Notes under the pieces: model-generated | Told to the model about the DNA's origin: nothing | Databases searched by the model: none | Seen by the model: only the letters and a program-made list of their open reading frames with translations | In this document: one piece after another, positions 56,401 to 64,000 of the stretch | How positions within the stretch are numbered: position 1 is the first letter of the stretch | Layout: every line of letters begins with the position of its first letter | DNA from: Mycolicibacterium insubricum | GTDB taxonomy: Bacteria; Actinomycetota; Actinomycetes; Mycobacteriales; Mycobacteriaceae | Direction of reading: 5' to 3' | DNA: 64,000 nucleotides | Assembly (NCBI RefSeq): GCF_010731615.1 | Contig: NZ_AP022618.1 | Location: 1,674,001-1,738,000, forward strand | Translations under genes and position numbers: made by a program

Positions 56401-56474
56401 CGCGGGGTGGAGCAGCTCGGTAGCTCGCTGGGCTCATAACCCAGAGGTCGCAGGTTCGAATCCTGTCCCCGCTA
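56401..56474 (+). tRNA. initiator tRNA-fMet (CAT)
   Basis: A 74-nt cloverleaf, CCA not encoded. Anticodon CAT in CTGGGCTCATAACCCAG, with the three G-C pairs of the anticodon stem that mark initiators. The first position C1 faces T72 and does not pair, another initiator feature. T arm GCAGG-TTCGAAT-CCTGT. A strong terminator follows. It lies at the junction of the conserved region and the accessory region. Confidence 0.95.
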
Positions 56475-56480
56475 CTAGCG

Positions 56481-56549: not shown

Positions 56550-57986
56550 GGCTCTTCGGATCTTGCCGGGGTTGGTGTTCATTGGACGACGATGGATGTG
56601 AGGACCCGCCAGTTGGGTTTGCCGGCGTAGAGCAGTGCTCGGATGCGGTAGTTCTTGAAGTTGGTGAAGCCGTAGCCGATGCGTTTGATGCGTTTGATCA
56701 GATTGTTCAGTGCCTCGGTGGGTCCGTTGCTGACGCGGGCGATGTGGAAGTTGCAGATCTTGTCGAACCAGGCTTTCAGGGTGCGGGCGAGTTTGTTCAG
56801 TTCGGTCGGCAGGCCTGGTCGTAGGCAGTGTTCGATCAGTTCGGACAGCATCGCGCGGGCAGTGTCGATGTCGGGGGCTCGGTAGAACTCGCGGAGTCGT
56901 TCTTTGACGCGGTAGGCGATGGCGACTTCGCCACGGGGATCACCGAGTTGTAGTAGCGCGCTCAGGCGTTGGGTGGCTTTGGTGTCGAGGCGTTCCTCGC
57001 CGGTCAACAGCACGCGGCGGATCCGGTAGAGGGGGTCGTTGCGTCGTCCGCGGTGGCCTTTTTGTTCACGCTGTACGCGTCGTCGGATCTCGTCGAGGGC
57101 CCGGTTGGCCAGTTGCACGCAGTGGAAGGGATCGACGACCTGGGCGGCGCGGGGCAGCATCACCGTGTAGACCGCGGCGTAGGTCGCTGACATGTCCAGG
57201 GCGCCGAAGCGGATGCGGTGTTTCCACGCGACGGGTTGCTGATCGACCCAGCCGGCGACGTCGACATAGCTTCGGGTGGGCAGGATTTCGATGATCTGGT
57301 GGTTGGCGACATCGGCGACGGTGGTCGCATACGAGCGGCCCCGACGGCCGGCGAGTTTGACGAACGAGGTCTCGTCCAAGCCGATCGCGGTGGTGGCGTT
57401 GAGGCGACGCCGATCAGCAGCCAGCAGCGCCGCACCGTAGGTCATGACTGCGTCGTTGACGGTATGCCAGTCACACGAGAGCTCACCGGCGACATCGGAG
57501 ACCGCACGACCGGTCCCGACCTGCAGAGTCGCCCATTTGGCGCACCGGGTCGTCAGCAGGCAGTTCTTAGCGGCGATGCGGTGATCGGCACTGGTCCAGC
57601 TCGCCCCCGCACAGTCGGGTCGCCGGCAGATCAACCGGTGCTTGCGCCACGCCAGCCGCATCGGCTGGCCGTACACGGGCAGGTCAACATAGCGCACGGT
57701 CGGCCGTTCCTTGATCTGGCCGGCAACGCCGCAGGTCGGGCAGGTTCGCTCGACGACGGTCTGCTCGATCACCAGCTCGACATCGGGACCGATGCGCCGG
57801 TAGGCCAACACGCGGACGTCCTTGAGCCCGACCAGGGCTTCGACGATCTGACTAGGCTCACAACGGACGAAGGTGCTTTCGGATTTGATGGTCACGCTTC
57901 AAAGACTCAGGCACCTTCGCCCCTCACAACCGCAGGGCACGCCGACCTCAAAGCCAACACCGGACCCCGCTGCAATCCGAAGAGCC
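56550..57986 (-). mobile_element. intact ISL3-family insertion sequence
   Basis: A 1437-bp element. Both ends begin GGCTCTTCGGAT read inward, and the similarity continues imperfectly for about 30 bp (CGGGGT and GGTGTT shared). An 8-bp direct duplication (GGTTATTG) flanks it, the length typical of ISL3 elements. It holds one transposase ORF on the minus strand that fills almost the whole length. Full ends, duplication and open reading frame indicate a recent, potentially active insertion. Confidence 0.93.
56579..57895 (-). CDS. ISL3-family transposase
   Basis: A 438-residue transposase. N-terminal zinc finger of C-x2-C type (RTCPTCGVAG, then ICRRPDCAG), HTH region, and DDE-type catalytic domain: GLDETSFVK (first Asp), VDPFHCVQLANRALDEIRRR (second), and a late Glu in VSNGPTEALNNLIKRIKR, the last motif being characteristic of ISL3. 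Complete from ATG to stop, with no frameshift. Confidence 0.95.
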   Translation of the reverse strand: MTIKSESTFVRCEPSQIVEALVGLKDVRVLAYRRIGPDVELVIEQTVVERTCPTCGVAGQIKERPTVRYVDLPVYGQPMRLAWRKHRLICRRPDCAGASWTSADHRIAAKNCLLTTRCAKWATLQVGTGRAVSDVAGELSCDWHTVNDAVMTYGAALLAADRRRLNATTAIGLDETSFVKLAGRRGRSYATTVADVANHQIIEILPTRSYVDVAGWVDQQPVAWKHRIRFGALDMSATYAAVYTVMLPRAAQVVDPFHCVQLANRALDEIRRRVQREQKGHRGRRNDPLYRIRRVLLTGEERLDTKATQRLSALLQLGDPRGEVAIAYRVKERLREFYRAPDIDTARAMLSELIEHCLRPGLPTELNKLARTLKAWFDKICNFHIARVSNGPTEALNNLIKRIKRIGYGFTNFKNYRIRALLYAGKPNWRVLTSIVVQ

Positions 57987-60031: not shown

Positions 60032-60151
60032 TCAACGGGTGGTCAGCGCTCCACGTTTGCGCTGAGGCGCCGCGGGTTGTTGCCCCGCTTCGGGCGGGTC
60101 CAGCCCGGTGGCTTCGCGGAAGCCTGTCTCGGTCGCGCCCTTCTTGATCAT
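60032..60151 (-). CDS. short ORF translationally coupled to vsr
   Basis: 39 codons, MIKKGATETGFREATGLDPP at the start, rich in Arg/Pro at the end. Its ATG overlaps the vsr stop as TGATG. Composition looks coding, but it may be a shortened remnant of a longer protein. No family is recognised. Confidence 0.3.
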   Translation of the reverse strand: MIKKGATETGFREATGLDPPEAGQQPAAPQRKRGALTTR

Positions 60152-60660
60152 CAACGCAAGCGGTGATCAACGCCGTGATTCCGCCTTCCAGGAGCTGAGG
60201 TTTCGCCTGGCCAGGTGATCGCCTGTTCAATAGCGGCCACCACGTCATCAACGTCCTCATGCTCCCAGAACCGTAGTACGCACCAACCGTCCGACTGGAG
60301 GGCTGCGGTCTGGTCGCGGTCCCGTCGGACGTTGCCCGCCAGCTTCGGCGACCAGTACTCGCCGTTGGCCCCAGGCTGTCGCCCGTGTTCTGGGCAGCTG
60401 TGCCAGAAGCAGCCGTCGACGAAAATGGCGACCCGGCGCTTGGTGAACGCGATGTCGGGGCGAACGAGTCTCCCGTTCACCCGAATCCGGTAGTCCTTGC
60501 GAAACCTGTAACCGAGCCGGTGAAGCGCAGAACGTAGCCTGACCTCGGGTTTCGTATCTCTTCGGCGGATTGCCGCCATGTTTCGAGAACGGCCTGGTGT
60601 CGTGAGGTACGGGGCGGTTTCAGGGTGTACCGGCGTGCCGGGACCGTCCTCGGCGACCAT
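60151..60660 (-). CDS. vsr: very short patch repair (Vsr) mismatch endonuclease
   Basis: A 169-residue Vsr-family nuclease that nicks 5' of the T in T:G mismatches formed when 5-methylcytosine deaminates. Motifs: RSRNMAAIRRRDTKPEVRLRSALHRLGYRFRKDYR, given here only by its positions 24-58, VRPDIAF with catalytic Asp69, IFVDGCFWHSCPEHG at 79-93 and FWEHE at 131-135. I start at the ATG at 60660; a longer frame to 60729 would run over the LexA box. Divergent from the cytosine methyltransferase gene, its natural partner. Confidence 0.92.
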   Translation of the reverse strand: MVAEDGPGTPVHPETAPYLTTPGRSRNMAAIRRRDTKPEVRLRSALHRLGYRFRKDYRIRVNGRLVRPDIAFTKRRVAIFVDGCFWHSCPEHGRQPGANGEYWSPKLAGNVRRDRDQTAALQSDGWCVLRFWEHEDVDDVVAAIEQAITWPGETSAPGRRNHGVDHRLR

Positions 60661-60685
60661 GCCGATACGGTACGTGGCGCGGGGT

Positions 60686-60715
60686 TTGACGGGTCGGGCG
60701 GTCCCGCGGTAGTGT
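60686..60715 (+). promoter_or_regulatory. SigA-type promoter of the cytosine methyltransferase gene
   Basis: -35 TTGACG at 60686-60691, 18-nt spacer, -10 TAGTGT at 60710-60715. Transcription would begin near 60722, inside the LexA box. Confidence 0.65.
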
Positions 60716-60721
60716 CTTGTA

Positions 60722-60737
60722 TCGAACATGGGTTCGA
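60722..60737. promoter_or_regulatory. LexA (SOS) box
   Basis: TCGAACATGGGTTCGA: a perfect match to the recalled mycobacterial LexA consensus TCGAAC-N4-GTTCGA. It covers the predicted transcription start of the methyltransferase gene and lies in the vsr upstream region, so it could repress one or both. Confidence 0.8.
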
Positions 60738-60758
60738 ACGGTGGCGGAGGTGTGCGGG

Positions 60759-61757
60759 ATGGCGGGGCGACGACTGAGCTGCCTGGAGATCTGCGCTGGA
60801 GCGGGCGGTCAGTCGCTGGGGCTTCATGACGCGGGCTTCGATCATCGCCTCGCGGTAGAGATCGATCCGGACGCGTGCCAGACGCTTCGGCTGAATAAAC
60901 CCAAATGGCAGATTTACGAGGGTGACGTTCGAGAGGTCGATGGCACCGCTTACCGTGGGATCGATCTATTGGCCGGCGGAGTGCCGTGTCCGCCGTTCTC
61001 TATTGCCGGCAAACAACTCGGCCAGGATGACGAGCGTGATCTATTCCCCGAGGCGCTACGGCTTGTCGAGGAAGCGCAGCCGAAGGCCGTCATGCTGGAG
61101 AATGTCCGGGGATTGTCGACCGCGAAATTTCACACGTACCGGGCGTCAATCAAGGCTCGACTCAAGGACCTCGGTTACGAATCGGACTGGCAAGTGCTGA
61201 ACGCCAGCGAGTTTGGCGTACCGCAGCTGCGCCCCCGATTCATTCTCGTTGCTGCTCGCCCTGAGCATTTCGCTCTATTTGAATGGCCAGGTGCGCAGAA
61301 AACGCCGCCAACGGTCGGGGAGACGCTCCATCATCTAATGGCGCGTGACGGATGGGCCGGGGCCGATGCTTGGGCCGAACGGGCTGACGGCATCGGTCCG
61401 ACGCTTGTGGGTGGCTCGCGAAAGCATGGTGGCCCCGATCTCGGTCCGACGCGTGCGCGCGCTGCATGGCTTGAGCTTGGCGTTGACGGTAAGGGCCTTG
61501 CGAATGAAGGGCCCAACGAGCTGACGCCGATCGATCACAATCCTCGACTCACGCTCGAAATGGCCGCTGCGATACAGGGTTTCCCGCCGGAGTGGAAGTT
61601 CCACGGGCGGAAAACCGCGGCATACCGTCAGATCGGCAATGCGTTCCCACCGCCGGTTGCTAAAGCGGTAGGCCGATCGATTGCAAAAGCATTGCGAAGT
61701 AATGTGAGTCGACGTCAATCGCGTGAGCGCCGCTTGATTGTGGTTCGATCGGCATAG
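60759..61757 (+). CDS. dcm: DNA (cytosine-5-)-methyltransferase
   Basis: A 332-residue C5 methyltransferase. Motif I EICAGAGGQSLGLHDAGF, motif IV PCPPFS with catalytic Cys77, motif VI ENVRG (114-118), motif VIII PQLRPRF, and motifs IX-X (IQGFPPEWKFHG and QIGNAFPPPVAKAVG). The target-recognition region is short. The ATG at 60759 has GGAGG upstream; upstream in-frame codons to 60717 overlap the LexA box. dcm is used as a family symbol; the recognition sequence is unknown. It converges on the NO VEIN nuclease gene (27 bp between stops). Confidence 0.94.
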   Translation: MAGRRLSCLEICAGAGGQSLGLHDAGFDHRLAVEIDPDACQTLRLNKPKWQIYEGDVREVDGTAYRGIDLLAGGVPCPPFSIAGKQLGQDDERDLFPEALRLVEEAQPKAVMLENVRGLSTAKFHTYRASIKARLKDLGYESDWQVLNASEFGVPQLRPRFILVAARPEHFALFEWPGAQKTPPTVGETLHHLMARDGWAGADAWAERADGIGPTLVGGSRKHGGPDLGPTRARAAWLELGVDGKGLANEGPNELTPIDHNPRLTLEMAAAIQGFPPEWKFHGRKTAAYRQIGNAFPPPVAKAVGRSIAKALRSNVSRRQSRERRLIVVRSA

Positions 61758-61784
61758 CGTAAGTTCGGTGTCGGTATTGTCGGA

Positions 61785-62636
61785 TCAGGCGCCCGGCCAT
61801 GTTGGTTCGCCTTGCAGGATTGCGGGTGCACGGAAGGTGCTGCGAGTGTAGATCGGCGCGATACCTGGTGTAATCGCATGATGCGGTATGTCCAGTCTCG
61901 CTGATTCCCAACGGCCACCCGGTTGATCCTCGGGTGCAGACATCGCAATCCAATTGCGATCGACTGTTGCAGTAGCGATGGGTCGCATGGCGTCGCTCAC
62001 CCGTAGCGCGACCAAGAGCCAATCGGGGTCGCGGCGCATGGCTTCGAATTCGTTGCGCGACAGGAATATCAACAGTCGTCCGCGTCGAGTTGTGGTCTTT
62101 ACTTCAATGTGCAGAGTCGCATCTAGCAGGGCGGCATGGATGTCGTACCCGTATCCGTCTGATACTGCGGCTACATGGCGAACCTGCACGTCGGGAACAG
62201 ATTGAAGCAACGATATCAGCGCGTATTCGCCCGCGGCACCGATTCTTTCGCGTTCAGCCGTATCAACCTTCCCCCAACAGCTGTGGACGATCGCAAATGC
62301 TTCCGACGGTTCGATGCCCAACGCTTCGGCTGCGAACATGCCATCTTGTGGCATCGAATTTGGTTCCGGCACAAGCAAGTCTGAGTCACGAAACCAAAGT
62401 GCCTCGCGAATCGCTGCTTCGAATACTACGTGGACACAGTCGTCCGTGGTCGGGGATGCCTTGAGCAAGCCTCTGGCTTGCAGCCATTCGTACGCGGTGG
62501 TGTACTGGGTTGGAGTGATGTCGGCGAACGCAGGATGTGCCCGAAATAAGGCGCGGAGTTGCGCATCGCTCGATTCGCGCCGATGTTCAAGCCAGCGGGC
62601 AGCAGCTCGAAGGACTGTACTAGACGGCACCGGCAC
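61785..62636 (-). CDS. NO VEIN (DUF3883)-domain protein, putative restriction nuclease
   Basis: A 283-residue protein. The C-terminal half carries the NO VEIN/DUF3883 fold, with a PD-(D/E)xK-like site: E137 in GAAGEYALI, D165 in GYGYDIHA, and E178-V-K180 in HIEVKTTTRRG, then LSRNEFEAM. The N-terminal half is helical with a possible winged helix and matches nothing I know. Its 5' end overlaps the helicase gene by 17 bp, so the two are translated together. Role as DNA cutter of a methylation-guided defence module is inferred from the neighbours. Confidence 0.78.
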   Translation of the reverse strand: MPVPSSTVLRAAARWLEHRRESSDAQLRALFRAHPAFADITPTQYTTAYEWLQARGLLKASPTTDDCVHVVFEAAIREALWFRDSDLLVPEPNSMPQDGMFAAEALGIEPSEAFAIVHSCWGKVDTAERERIGAAGEYALISLLQSVPDVQVRHVAAVSDGYGYDIHAALLDATLHIEVKTTTRRGRLLIFLSRNEFEAMRRDPDWLLVALRVSDAMRPIATATVDRNWIAMSAPEDQPGGRWESARLDIPHHAITPGIAPIYTRSTFRAPAILQGEPTWPGA

Positions 62637-64000
62637 GGAGGTGCCCCATCAACGCTTGCAGGTCGCTGTGATCAAGTCCGCCGCCAACGGCAGGTTCTTC
62701 ATCCAGGTCAGCTAGCTCCTGCACTGCAGGGTCATCGAGGATGCGCCCCATAAAGTCGAGTTTGGAAGCGAGCCGCTGGTTCACGATCTCGTCAATCGTG
62801 CCAACGCTTGTAAGCACGACGATCCGGGTCTCGACATCAGGAGCCAAGCCAAGCCGATGGATACGGTCGAGACTTTGCAGGAATCGCCCCGCGGCGAAGT
62901 CCCGGTCAATGTACACAGCATCGTGGCACTCATGATGCAGGCTGATGCCCTCGCCCAGTGTTGCGGGGTTTGACACGAGCACCATGCATTCGGGGTCGCT
63001 CCGGAAGCGCGCGATCTCGCTATCACGATCCTCAGTTGCACCGTGAACGATGGCAGGATGAAACTCCTGAAGGATGTCGGCCAACGTGTTGATGCTGCGG
63101 ATGAACGAGGACCACACAAGGGTCTTCCGCCCGGCTGCGGCATTTGATGCCACGATGGCAAGCGCCTCCTGATACTTGGGTGAGAGTTCATAGCTCGGTA
63201 GGTCTTGCATCAGTCTCAAAAGCGGCGAGTCATGTGGCACCGGGAGCGGTGGCACTTGGTACGCCAATGGTTCATATCTTGTGGTTCCCGCCGCAAGAAG
63301 CGCGGGACTGATCGCGGCCATGAGCAGGTAGACGAGGATGCGGCCGAGGAGCTGCAAATCGTCTTGTGAGGTTGCTGCTCTGGCGGAATACATGCCGATC
63401 AGTCCGTCGTAGATTTCGCGATGGAGCGGCGGTAGATCGACTAGCCGTTGGCTGAGACTGACTGGGGGAAGACCGAGTTCGCCTTTTGTGGTTCGCGTGA
63501 ATAGCGGCTGTAAGACACGACTTGCGTACGCGAGGTCGCCTCCGGCGACGGCATTGCTCACGGTGCGCCGACCGTGACCGGGCCATACAAATCCCAGCAG
63601 GTTCTCAAGGTCTCTCGCGCCGTTCGGTGCAGGAGTGCCTGTGAGGATCAGCCGACGCCGAGCACGTGCGCCGAGCGCCATGCACGCAGCCCCGTATACT
63701 CCATCGGCACCTCGCTTCATCCGATGCGCTTCGTCCAGGATGAGGAGCGTGGGCCGGGCAACTAGCCAGCGCCCCAGCGCGCTTAAGGAGCCTCGAAGCC
63801 GCTCGTAGTTCACAACGAGAGCTTCTGTGGATGGGTTGGCGTTGGATTCGAAGATTTCCATCCGAAGGGCCGGAGTCAGACACTCGGCGTTCTCCGTCTG
63901 CCAAGATTCGTAGCAGGATTTTGGGCCGACAATCAGCATCCGGTCGACGATGCCCATCTCTCTAAGTGCTTGAAACACTGCAAGTCCCACGCGGGTTTTA
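62620..64000 (-). CDS. SNF2-family helicase/translocase, N-terminus cut by window edge
   Basis: 460 C-terminal residues of a SNF2-type ATPase. The window begins at the end of Walker A (KTRVGLAVFQALR), then LIVGPKSCYESWQTE (motif Ia), LLILDEAHRMKRG (motif II DEAH), LTGTPAPNGARDLENLL (III), and helicase C-terminal motifs KTLVWSSFIRSINTLAD (IV), ATLGEGISLHHECHDAVYID (V) and QSLDRIHRLG (VI). It may translocate on duplex DNA or remodel protein-DNA complexes. Overlaps and precedes the NO VEIN nuclease gene. Its start and any further genes lie beyond 64000. Confidence 0.9.
   Translation of the reverse strand, partial: KTRVGLAVFQALREMGIVDRMLIVGPKSCYESWQTENAECLTPALRMEIFESNANPSTEALVVNYERLRGSLSALGRWLVARPTLLILDEAHRMKRGADGVYGAACMALGARARRRLILTGTPAPNGARDLENLLGFVWPGHGRRTVSNAVAGGDLAYASRVLQPLFTRTTKGELGLPPVSLSQRLVDLPPLHREIYDGLIGMYSARAATSQDDLQLLGRILVYLLMAAISPALLAAGTTRYEPLAYQVPPLPVPHDSPLLRLMQDLPSYELSPKYQEALAIVASNAAAGRKTLVWSSFIRSINTLADILQEFHPAIVHGATEDRDSEIARFRSDPECMVLVSNPATLGEGISLHHECHDAVYIDRDFAAGRFLQSLDRIHRLGLAPDVETRIVVLTSVGTIDEIVNQRLASKLDFMGRILDDPAVQELADLDEEPAVGGGLDHSDLQALMGHLRAGAV

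Follow-up and report, generated by a model that had tools for sequence, protein, structure and literature searches.

SWI2/SNF2 operons that carry MORC and nucleases of the HNH or EcoRII-like kind, and in many cases Vsr and cytosine methylases as well, are described in the part of Iyer et al. (2008, PMC2292703) available to us, and the available part of PMC3710099 describes restriction-modification (R-M) operons in which SNF2 is fused to DUF3883. In GmrSD, a ParB-fold protein is paired with an HNH-fold protein (PMC12839542, available sections). Here we analysed a locus of Mycolicibacterium insubricum (NZ_AP022618.1) in which one C5-cytosine methyltransferase (MTase) of predicted site GCCGGC and its Vsr stand with two putative arms: a homologue of the endonuclease NaeI, and a block of four genes encoding a pseudo-HNH protein, a ParB-like protein, an SNF2 translocase and a nuclease of the NO VEIN kind (NOV). 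The window, by which we mean the whole 64,000-nucleotide stretch analysed, covers positions 1674001-1738000 of a genome that is a single contig of 4.58 Mb. Its edge splits the locus, with the first genes inside and the remainder to the right, and 32 kb to the right of this edge was fetched. Positions prefixed L002 are window positions minus 56000. The genes of the two arms, the MTase and Vsr are as follows.

60151..60729, minus strand: Vsr mismatch endonuclease, an open reading frame (ORF) of 192 amino acids (aa) with the domain from residue 44 (PF03852, 3.9e-21, 75 bits; TIGR00632, 144 bits, cut-off 97.85)
60717..61757, likelier start 60759, plus strand: C5-cytosine MTase (PF00145, 1.3e-69, 235 bits)
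61785..62636, minus strand: NOV, a PD-(D/E)XK nuclease of the NO VEIN/DUF3883 kind (PF13020, NOV_C, 9.3e-9, 36 bits, cut-off 22)
62620..64446 in continued numbering (L002:6620-8446), minus strand: SNF2 translocase, 608 aa in full (PF00176, PF00271 (Helicase_C) and PF04851)
L002:8443-9945, likelier start 9855, minus strand: ParB-like protein
L002:9951-10661, plus strand: pseudo-HNH, a zinc protein whose HNH site is degenerate
L002:10721-11692, plus strand: R.NaeI endonuclease (PF09126, 1.7e-111)

The identity of these parts is secure. Vsr, MTase, NOV and SNF2 had been named, in this order, in the original prediction made from the window, and the gene calls together with the Pfam and TIGR00632 matches bear this out. 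The tight packing described there is likewise real: the Vsr and MTase ORFs as called are divergent and overlap by 13 bp, MTase and NOV are convergent with a gap of 27 bp, and NOV and SNF2 overlap by 17 bp. Extending the sequence to the right, as had been proposed, revealed that the gene set runs 6 kb further, through the ParB-like, pseudo-HNH and R.NaeI genes to a Gabija pair. The ParB-like protein contains a ParB N-domain and a helix-turn-helix (HTH) domain, as expected of the ParB superfamily fold. In NOV, D165, E178 and K180 are invariant in 18/18 aligned NOV proteins, in keeping with a PD-(D/E)XK nuclease; E178 and K180 had been picked out in the original prediction.

An alignment of 21 ParB-like proteins was scanned against a collection of genome contigs. 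This confirmed 146 loci; the best 80 were kept and, with L002, give 81. The 80 comprise 44 from Streptomyces, the rest being from other actinobacteria and one Corallococcus, and two of them (L048 and L067) come from the same metagenome-assembled genome and are both counted. Counted as six-frame profile matches over the whole fetched stretch, with ParB as the anchor, ParB, SNF2 and an HNH-family gene were present in all 81 loci and the MTase in 80, followed by Vsr (72), NOV (47), an HTH gene (40), NaeI (21), a GmrSD-like gene (7) and NgoMIV (6). The single locus without an MTase (L017) lies on a contig that ends 4.6 kb past ParB. The claim that the MTase belongs with the nuclease-helicase pair thus gains support, the MTase being found beside the block in 80/81 loci. 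SNF2 and NOV share the strand of ParB wherever they are present, and the best HNH-family copy lies no more than 300 bp from ParB in 79/81 loci (2.7 kb in L023 and L025). Of the 45 loci with both genes called, 34 show the very same 17-bp overlap between the start of NOV and the end of SNF2, and because it recurs to this extent, the overlap is not due to chance. Walker A, DEAH and motif VI of SNF2 are retained in at least 95% of the 81 rows.

Distance-matrix correlations were high within the block (ParB-SNF2, r 0.92; ParB-HNH, 0.91; ParB-NOV, 0.88), moderate between the block and the MTase (0.69; 0.62 and 0.56 within two lineages) and weak with Vsr (0.33), the permutation maxima being 0.07-0.27 over all loci and up to 0.34 within lineages. 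These correlations owe part of their height to shared descent, since host phylogeny is still in the matrices. The MTase, Vsr and endonuclease genes are found on both sides and both strands of the block, and because side and strand vary, their association with it is not that of a single frozen operon. Collectively, these comparisons of gene order and sequence indicate that pseudo-HNH, ParB-like, SNF2 and NOV genes are a conserved block. PADLOC gave weak matches only for SNF2 and NOV and no model match for the ParB-like or pseudo-HNH protein, and the four-gene set was not found in full-text literature searches. In seven Streptomyces loci (L009, L012, L016, L020, L021, L035 and L036), a gene of the GmrSD_N cluster, of which one member was domain-scanned, lies between NOV and Vsr. 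Relatives of SNF2 with 34-35% identity occur in the viral contigs L094-L097.

The recognition block of the window MTase is GGSRKHGGPDLGPTRA. With the best MTase per locus used for the count, the target-recognition block GGSx(K/R)HGGxDLGPxRA was present in 79/80 MTase rows, the 80th (L067) being truncated, and it was present alike in loci with NaeI, with NgoMIV or with neither. Within the loci sampled, there is good support for the four-gene block accompanying the same MTase type, with or without an endonuclease. The same recognition block also occurs where the ParB core is absent, namely in L112 (MTase, NgoMIV and Vsr), L113 (MTase and NgoMIV), and L110 and L111 (MTase, Vsr and an HNH-family protein); L114 and L115 have MTase matches without it. 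Of 396 genomes of the phylum, nine reach E <= 1e-60 against the MTase alignment; all three with the ParB core are among them, the other six are those of L110-L115, and four of the seven genomes with the MTase type of the window are without the core. NaeI cuts GCC|GGC. The site of NgoMIV is G|CCGGC in the available part of PMC4081073, which gives another string for the NaeI site, apparently a misprint. Because the recognition block is common to the MTases of the core and to the core-less MTase-NgoMIV pairs, it points to GCCGGC as the predicted site of the window MTase. As a separate observation, the 64-kb window holds 148 GCCGGC sites compared to 104 in dinucleotide shuffles, with 0/100 shuffles as high.

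R.NaeI, 2.7 kb past the window edge, aligns to NaeI (PDB 1ev7) over residues 11-315 (E 5.9e-125) and retains the TDY and DCK stretches, which we take to be the PD-(D/E)XK residues. An MTase (PF00145) lies in the same locus, as expected of a type II system of the NaeI family. Apart from the window MTase, the genome has no C5-MTase match (N4-cytosine and adenine MTases were not searched for); as a yardstick, such matches are absent from 31/60 genomes of the class and from 23/50 of the near-complete ones. Because a NaeI-family endonuclease is nearby and the window MTase is the sole C5-MTase match, MTase, Vsr and NaeI read as a probable ordinary type II R-M system, and the earlier statement that the locus does not fit type II falls. 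The idea of an undescribed module survives in part: it suits SNF2 and NOV, which belong to a conserved four-gene block whose ParB-like and pseudo-HNH members gave no PADLOC model match.

NaeI and the SNF2-NOV-ParB genes may be two independent systems that share one defence island. NaeI is also found with another MTase and no block (L085 and L086), the MTase type is also found without the block (four genomes), defence genes cluster in islands, and gene order round the block varies. However, the window MTase is of the type found beside the block in 79/80 MTase-bearing loci, the 80th being truncated, and not of the type that accompanies block-less NaeI. As the sole C5-MTase match, it must also serve NaeI, provided that NaeI works and that protection does not come from another class of MTase; an active NaeI would require the GCCGGC sites of the genome to be protected by one or the other. 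We consider independence of the two systems improbable. Four of the 396 genomes have NaeI: G000 and G352 together with the core, G263 and G040 with no ParB match, and the MTases of the latter two reach 97-99 bits only and lack the recognition block. Since the core-less NaeI genomes have another MTase without this block, the window MTase belongs to the core's type and NaeI looks like an exchangeable partner.

In the HNH-family protein of the core, two CxxC pairs are retained and the catalytic residues are not. The first His was found in 0/81 core copies at the position aligned to the H-N-N of L111, whereas the L110 and L111 homologues, which accompany this MTase type in the absence of the core, read H-N-N. 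All 81 core copies (the best-scoring per locus) form one clade with support of 100/99. Ten second HNH copies in core loci comprise five with the His (HDN in three, HNN in one, HNG in one) and five without, three of which have a His one residue earlier. The simplest history would be one loss of cutting in a protein already partnered with this MTase, and we infer that pseudo-HNH still reads GCCGGC. A second HNH-family gene was observed in L053, L057, L065 and L082 (~13-19 kb) and in L081 (8-13 kb), with the first catalytic His in 4/5. In these loci it lies between two MTases bearing the recognition block, with Vsr next and then NaeI (no NaeI in L053).

That the block is a restriction system is a reasonable hypothesis. 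In the scheme we favour, which is plausible but short of an even chance, the block would be a restriction arm in which GCCGGC methylation is the self mark, pseudo-HNH a dead reader, the ParB-like protein a clamp, SNF2 the motor and NOV the cutter. It would work as an adenosine triphosphate-dependent machine, possibly dependent on cytidine triphosphate too. The MTase would mark self DNA at GCCGGC. Pseudo-HNH, homologous to HNH proteins beside the same MTase type elsewhere, would read the site without cutting, and it or the site itself would allow the ParB-fold protein to be loaded as a clamp. Next, the SNF2 motor would travel along unmodified DNA and NOV would cut, with Vsr repairing T:G mismatches that arise from deamination of 5-methylcytosine. 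NaeI and NgoMIV could be gained or lost freely because the same methylation would protect from them. The general form of this scheme would be multi-subunit restriction driven by nucleoside triphosphates, with a cutting-dead enzyme as methylation-sensitive specificity subunit, a ParB sliding clamp, an SNF2 motor that brings an exchangeable nuclease (NOV or another) and an MTase shared with NaeI and NgoMIV; we regard this as possible but doubtful.

The strongest argument against plain restriction comes from loci without a recognisable cutter. NaeI and NgoMIV are both missing from 54/81 loci, and 27 of these 54 have NOV. The other 27 of the 54 have none of NOV, NaeI, NgoMIV and the GmrSD-like gene; in 20 of these 27 the sequence continues for 3 kb or more in each direction from ParB, SNF2, MTase and Vsr. 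In two of the 27 (L060 and L061) an altered HNH-family gene is present as a second copy; in the others Vsr is the sole nuclease by the profiles used, few of the 145 candidate neighbours having been domain-scanned. These loci would suit a block that is a helper or regulator of methylation, one that keeps GCCGGC methylated, controls expression of the MTase or endonuclease, or repairs the breaks and nicks of NaeI or Vsr. The same can be said of the HTH-type gene that adjoins the block in 40/81 loci (the one member scanned matched Pfam HTH_31, below cut-off) and of the presence of Vsr in 33/34 NOV-less loci, the exception (L024) ending at a contig end. Such a role sits poorly with NOV itself, which keeps its catalytic residues, overlaps SNF2 by the recurrent 17 bp and co-varies with the block (0.88), and with the location of several loci among defence genes, and we judge it rather unlikely.

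If the block is a restriction arm as proposed, one epigenetic mark would guard against two mechanically different restriction arms, and a ParB clamp would gain a role in DNA restriction. There would also be a reason for the persistence of GCCGGC-type MTases and Vsr in actinobacteria without an adjacent endonuclease. A mechanism of the proposed kind would, if real, be an unusual one.

The surroundings of the locus are those of an island, whose remaining features are as follows.

56401..56475, plus strand: tRNA-Met (ARAGORN), the left island border
56579..57895, minus strand: ISL3-family transposase (PF01610, 2.6e-58)
L002:11706-12740 (from 67706 in continued numbering), minus strand: Gabija GajB
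L002:12727-14325 (to 70325 in continued numbering), minus strand: Gabija GajA
L002:15922-17388: short-chain fatty acid transporter gene, the right island border

From 56 kb onward the guanine-plus-cytosine (GC) content is 59-66% compared to 64-77% at 40-56 kb (1-kb steps), in agreement with the lower GC content reported earlier; it falls to 49% just past the window, and the island overall spans 49-66%. The flanks are near-adjacent in two genomes of the same genus, with the left match ending at 219211 and the right starting at 219849 in G413 (C8), and at 2868521 and 2869330 in G409 (C1). The tRNA-Met thus lies ~0.6-0.8 kb from the right flank in these genomes compared to ~15 kb in the window genome, and because of this near-adjacency the island is a filled insertion site that is almost empty in relatives. 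In G038, 16.5 kb separates the two flanks. The tRNA-Met looks like an insertion hotspot within the genus. The SNF2 gene was found in 3/60 genomes of the genus, its own included (G415 has a distant match only), and the ParB gene in 3/396 genomes of the phylum. The transposase is a mobile piece of the island, outside the system. GajA and GajB (648 and 393 bits, PADLOC; genes overlapping by 14 bp) constitute a Gabija pair directly downstream of NaeI, within the stretch where GC falls to 49%. Second exact copies of the tRNA-Met 3' end, 44-47 bp long and 8-29 kb off, were observed in G397, G074 and G400, a pattern that integrating elements leave. At the right island end, the 680 bp of L002:14464-15146 have matches of ~70% identity at one or more places in most of 31 same-genus genomes, its own included.

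Among named defence systems, DISARM is approached by the similarity of SNF2 to DrmD, but the match reaches 30.6 bits against a cut-off of 610, and no DrmA, DrmB or DrmC appeared for the 11 island proteins among the matches listed. For BREX, no PglZ or BrxC appeared for the island proteins among the matches listed, and SNF2 gave only a weak BrxHI match. The original prediction was thus right to set both systems aside. The window MTase resembles the DruM of Druantia type II in PADLOC (PDLC00029 DruM2, 615 bits), a name that is misleading if used alone, with no DruE or DruF near; the plain type II system beside the MTase is all that PADLOC detects. A Druantia type II remnant, for which one could also cite a DruE in L083 and a DruF in L011, is hardly credible and disfavoured: DruM was the one model match, no DruE or DruF was among the matches listed for the 11 island proteins, and c26, the cluster to which the DruE gene belongs, is in only 5/81 loci.

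SspE, like GmrSD, has a ParB-Srx-fold NTPase with HNH. The locus shares with GmrSD the pairing of a ParB-fold with an HNH-fold protein, as far as the available sections of PMC12839542 describe it, but here the ParB N-domain and HTH are on a separate chain, the HNH is inactive, and an MTase and SNF2 are present. NaeI type IIE R-M is matched by an endonuclease with homology to NaeI along almost all of its length and by a C5-MTase and Vsr in the locus; however, the window MTase is unlike that beside NaeI in the core-less L085 and L086, and four extra genes lie here between MTase and endonuclease. NgoMIV-type R-M has the same MTase recognition block beside the NgoMIV homologue in the core-less L112 (with Vsr) and L113, whereas the window carries NaeI instead, together with the four-gene block.

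In the MORC/SWI2-SNF2 operons, as far as the available part of PMC2292703 goes, an SNF2 motor, a cytosine MTase, Vsr and an HNH-fold protein stand together as they do here; the locus differs in having no MORC, a ParB-like protein, a dead HNH site and a NOV nuclease. It could be a MORC-less variant of these operons that works as Iyer et al. (2008) proposed. The enzyme kinds are the same, and some loci have HATPase genes close to the core (clusters c32 and c35, four loci each, one member each scanned). On the other hand, a Pfam scan of 11 island proteins gave no HATPase domain and thus no GHKL ATPase of the MORC or paraMORC kind, "ParB" is absent from the main text of PMC2292703, and the HNH domain here is dead. 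We consider such a variant improbable. The Ava_2192-type R-M operons (PMC3710099, available part) also link an SNF2 helicase with a nuclease of the DUF3883/NOV kind in an R-M setting, but there as an SNF2-DUF3883 fusion with a HEPN-AAA+ protein, and here as separate genes with ParB and pseudo-HNH. Together, on the available parts of both sources, the MORC SWI2/SNF2 R-M operons (PMC2292703) and the SNF2-DUF3883 fusions (PMC3710099) are the nearest described kin of this locus.

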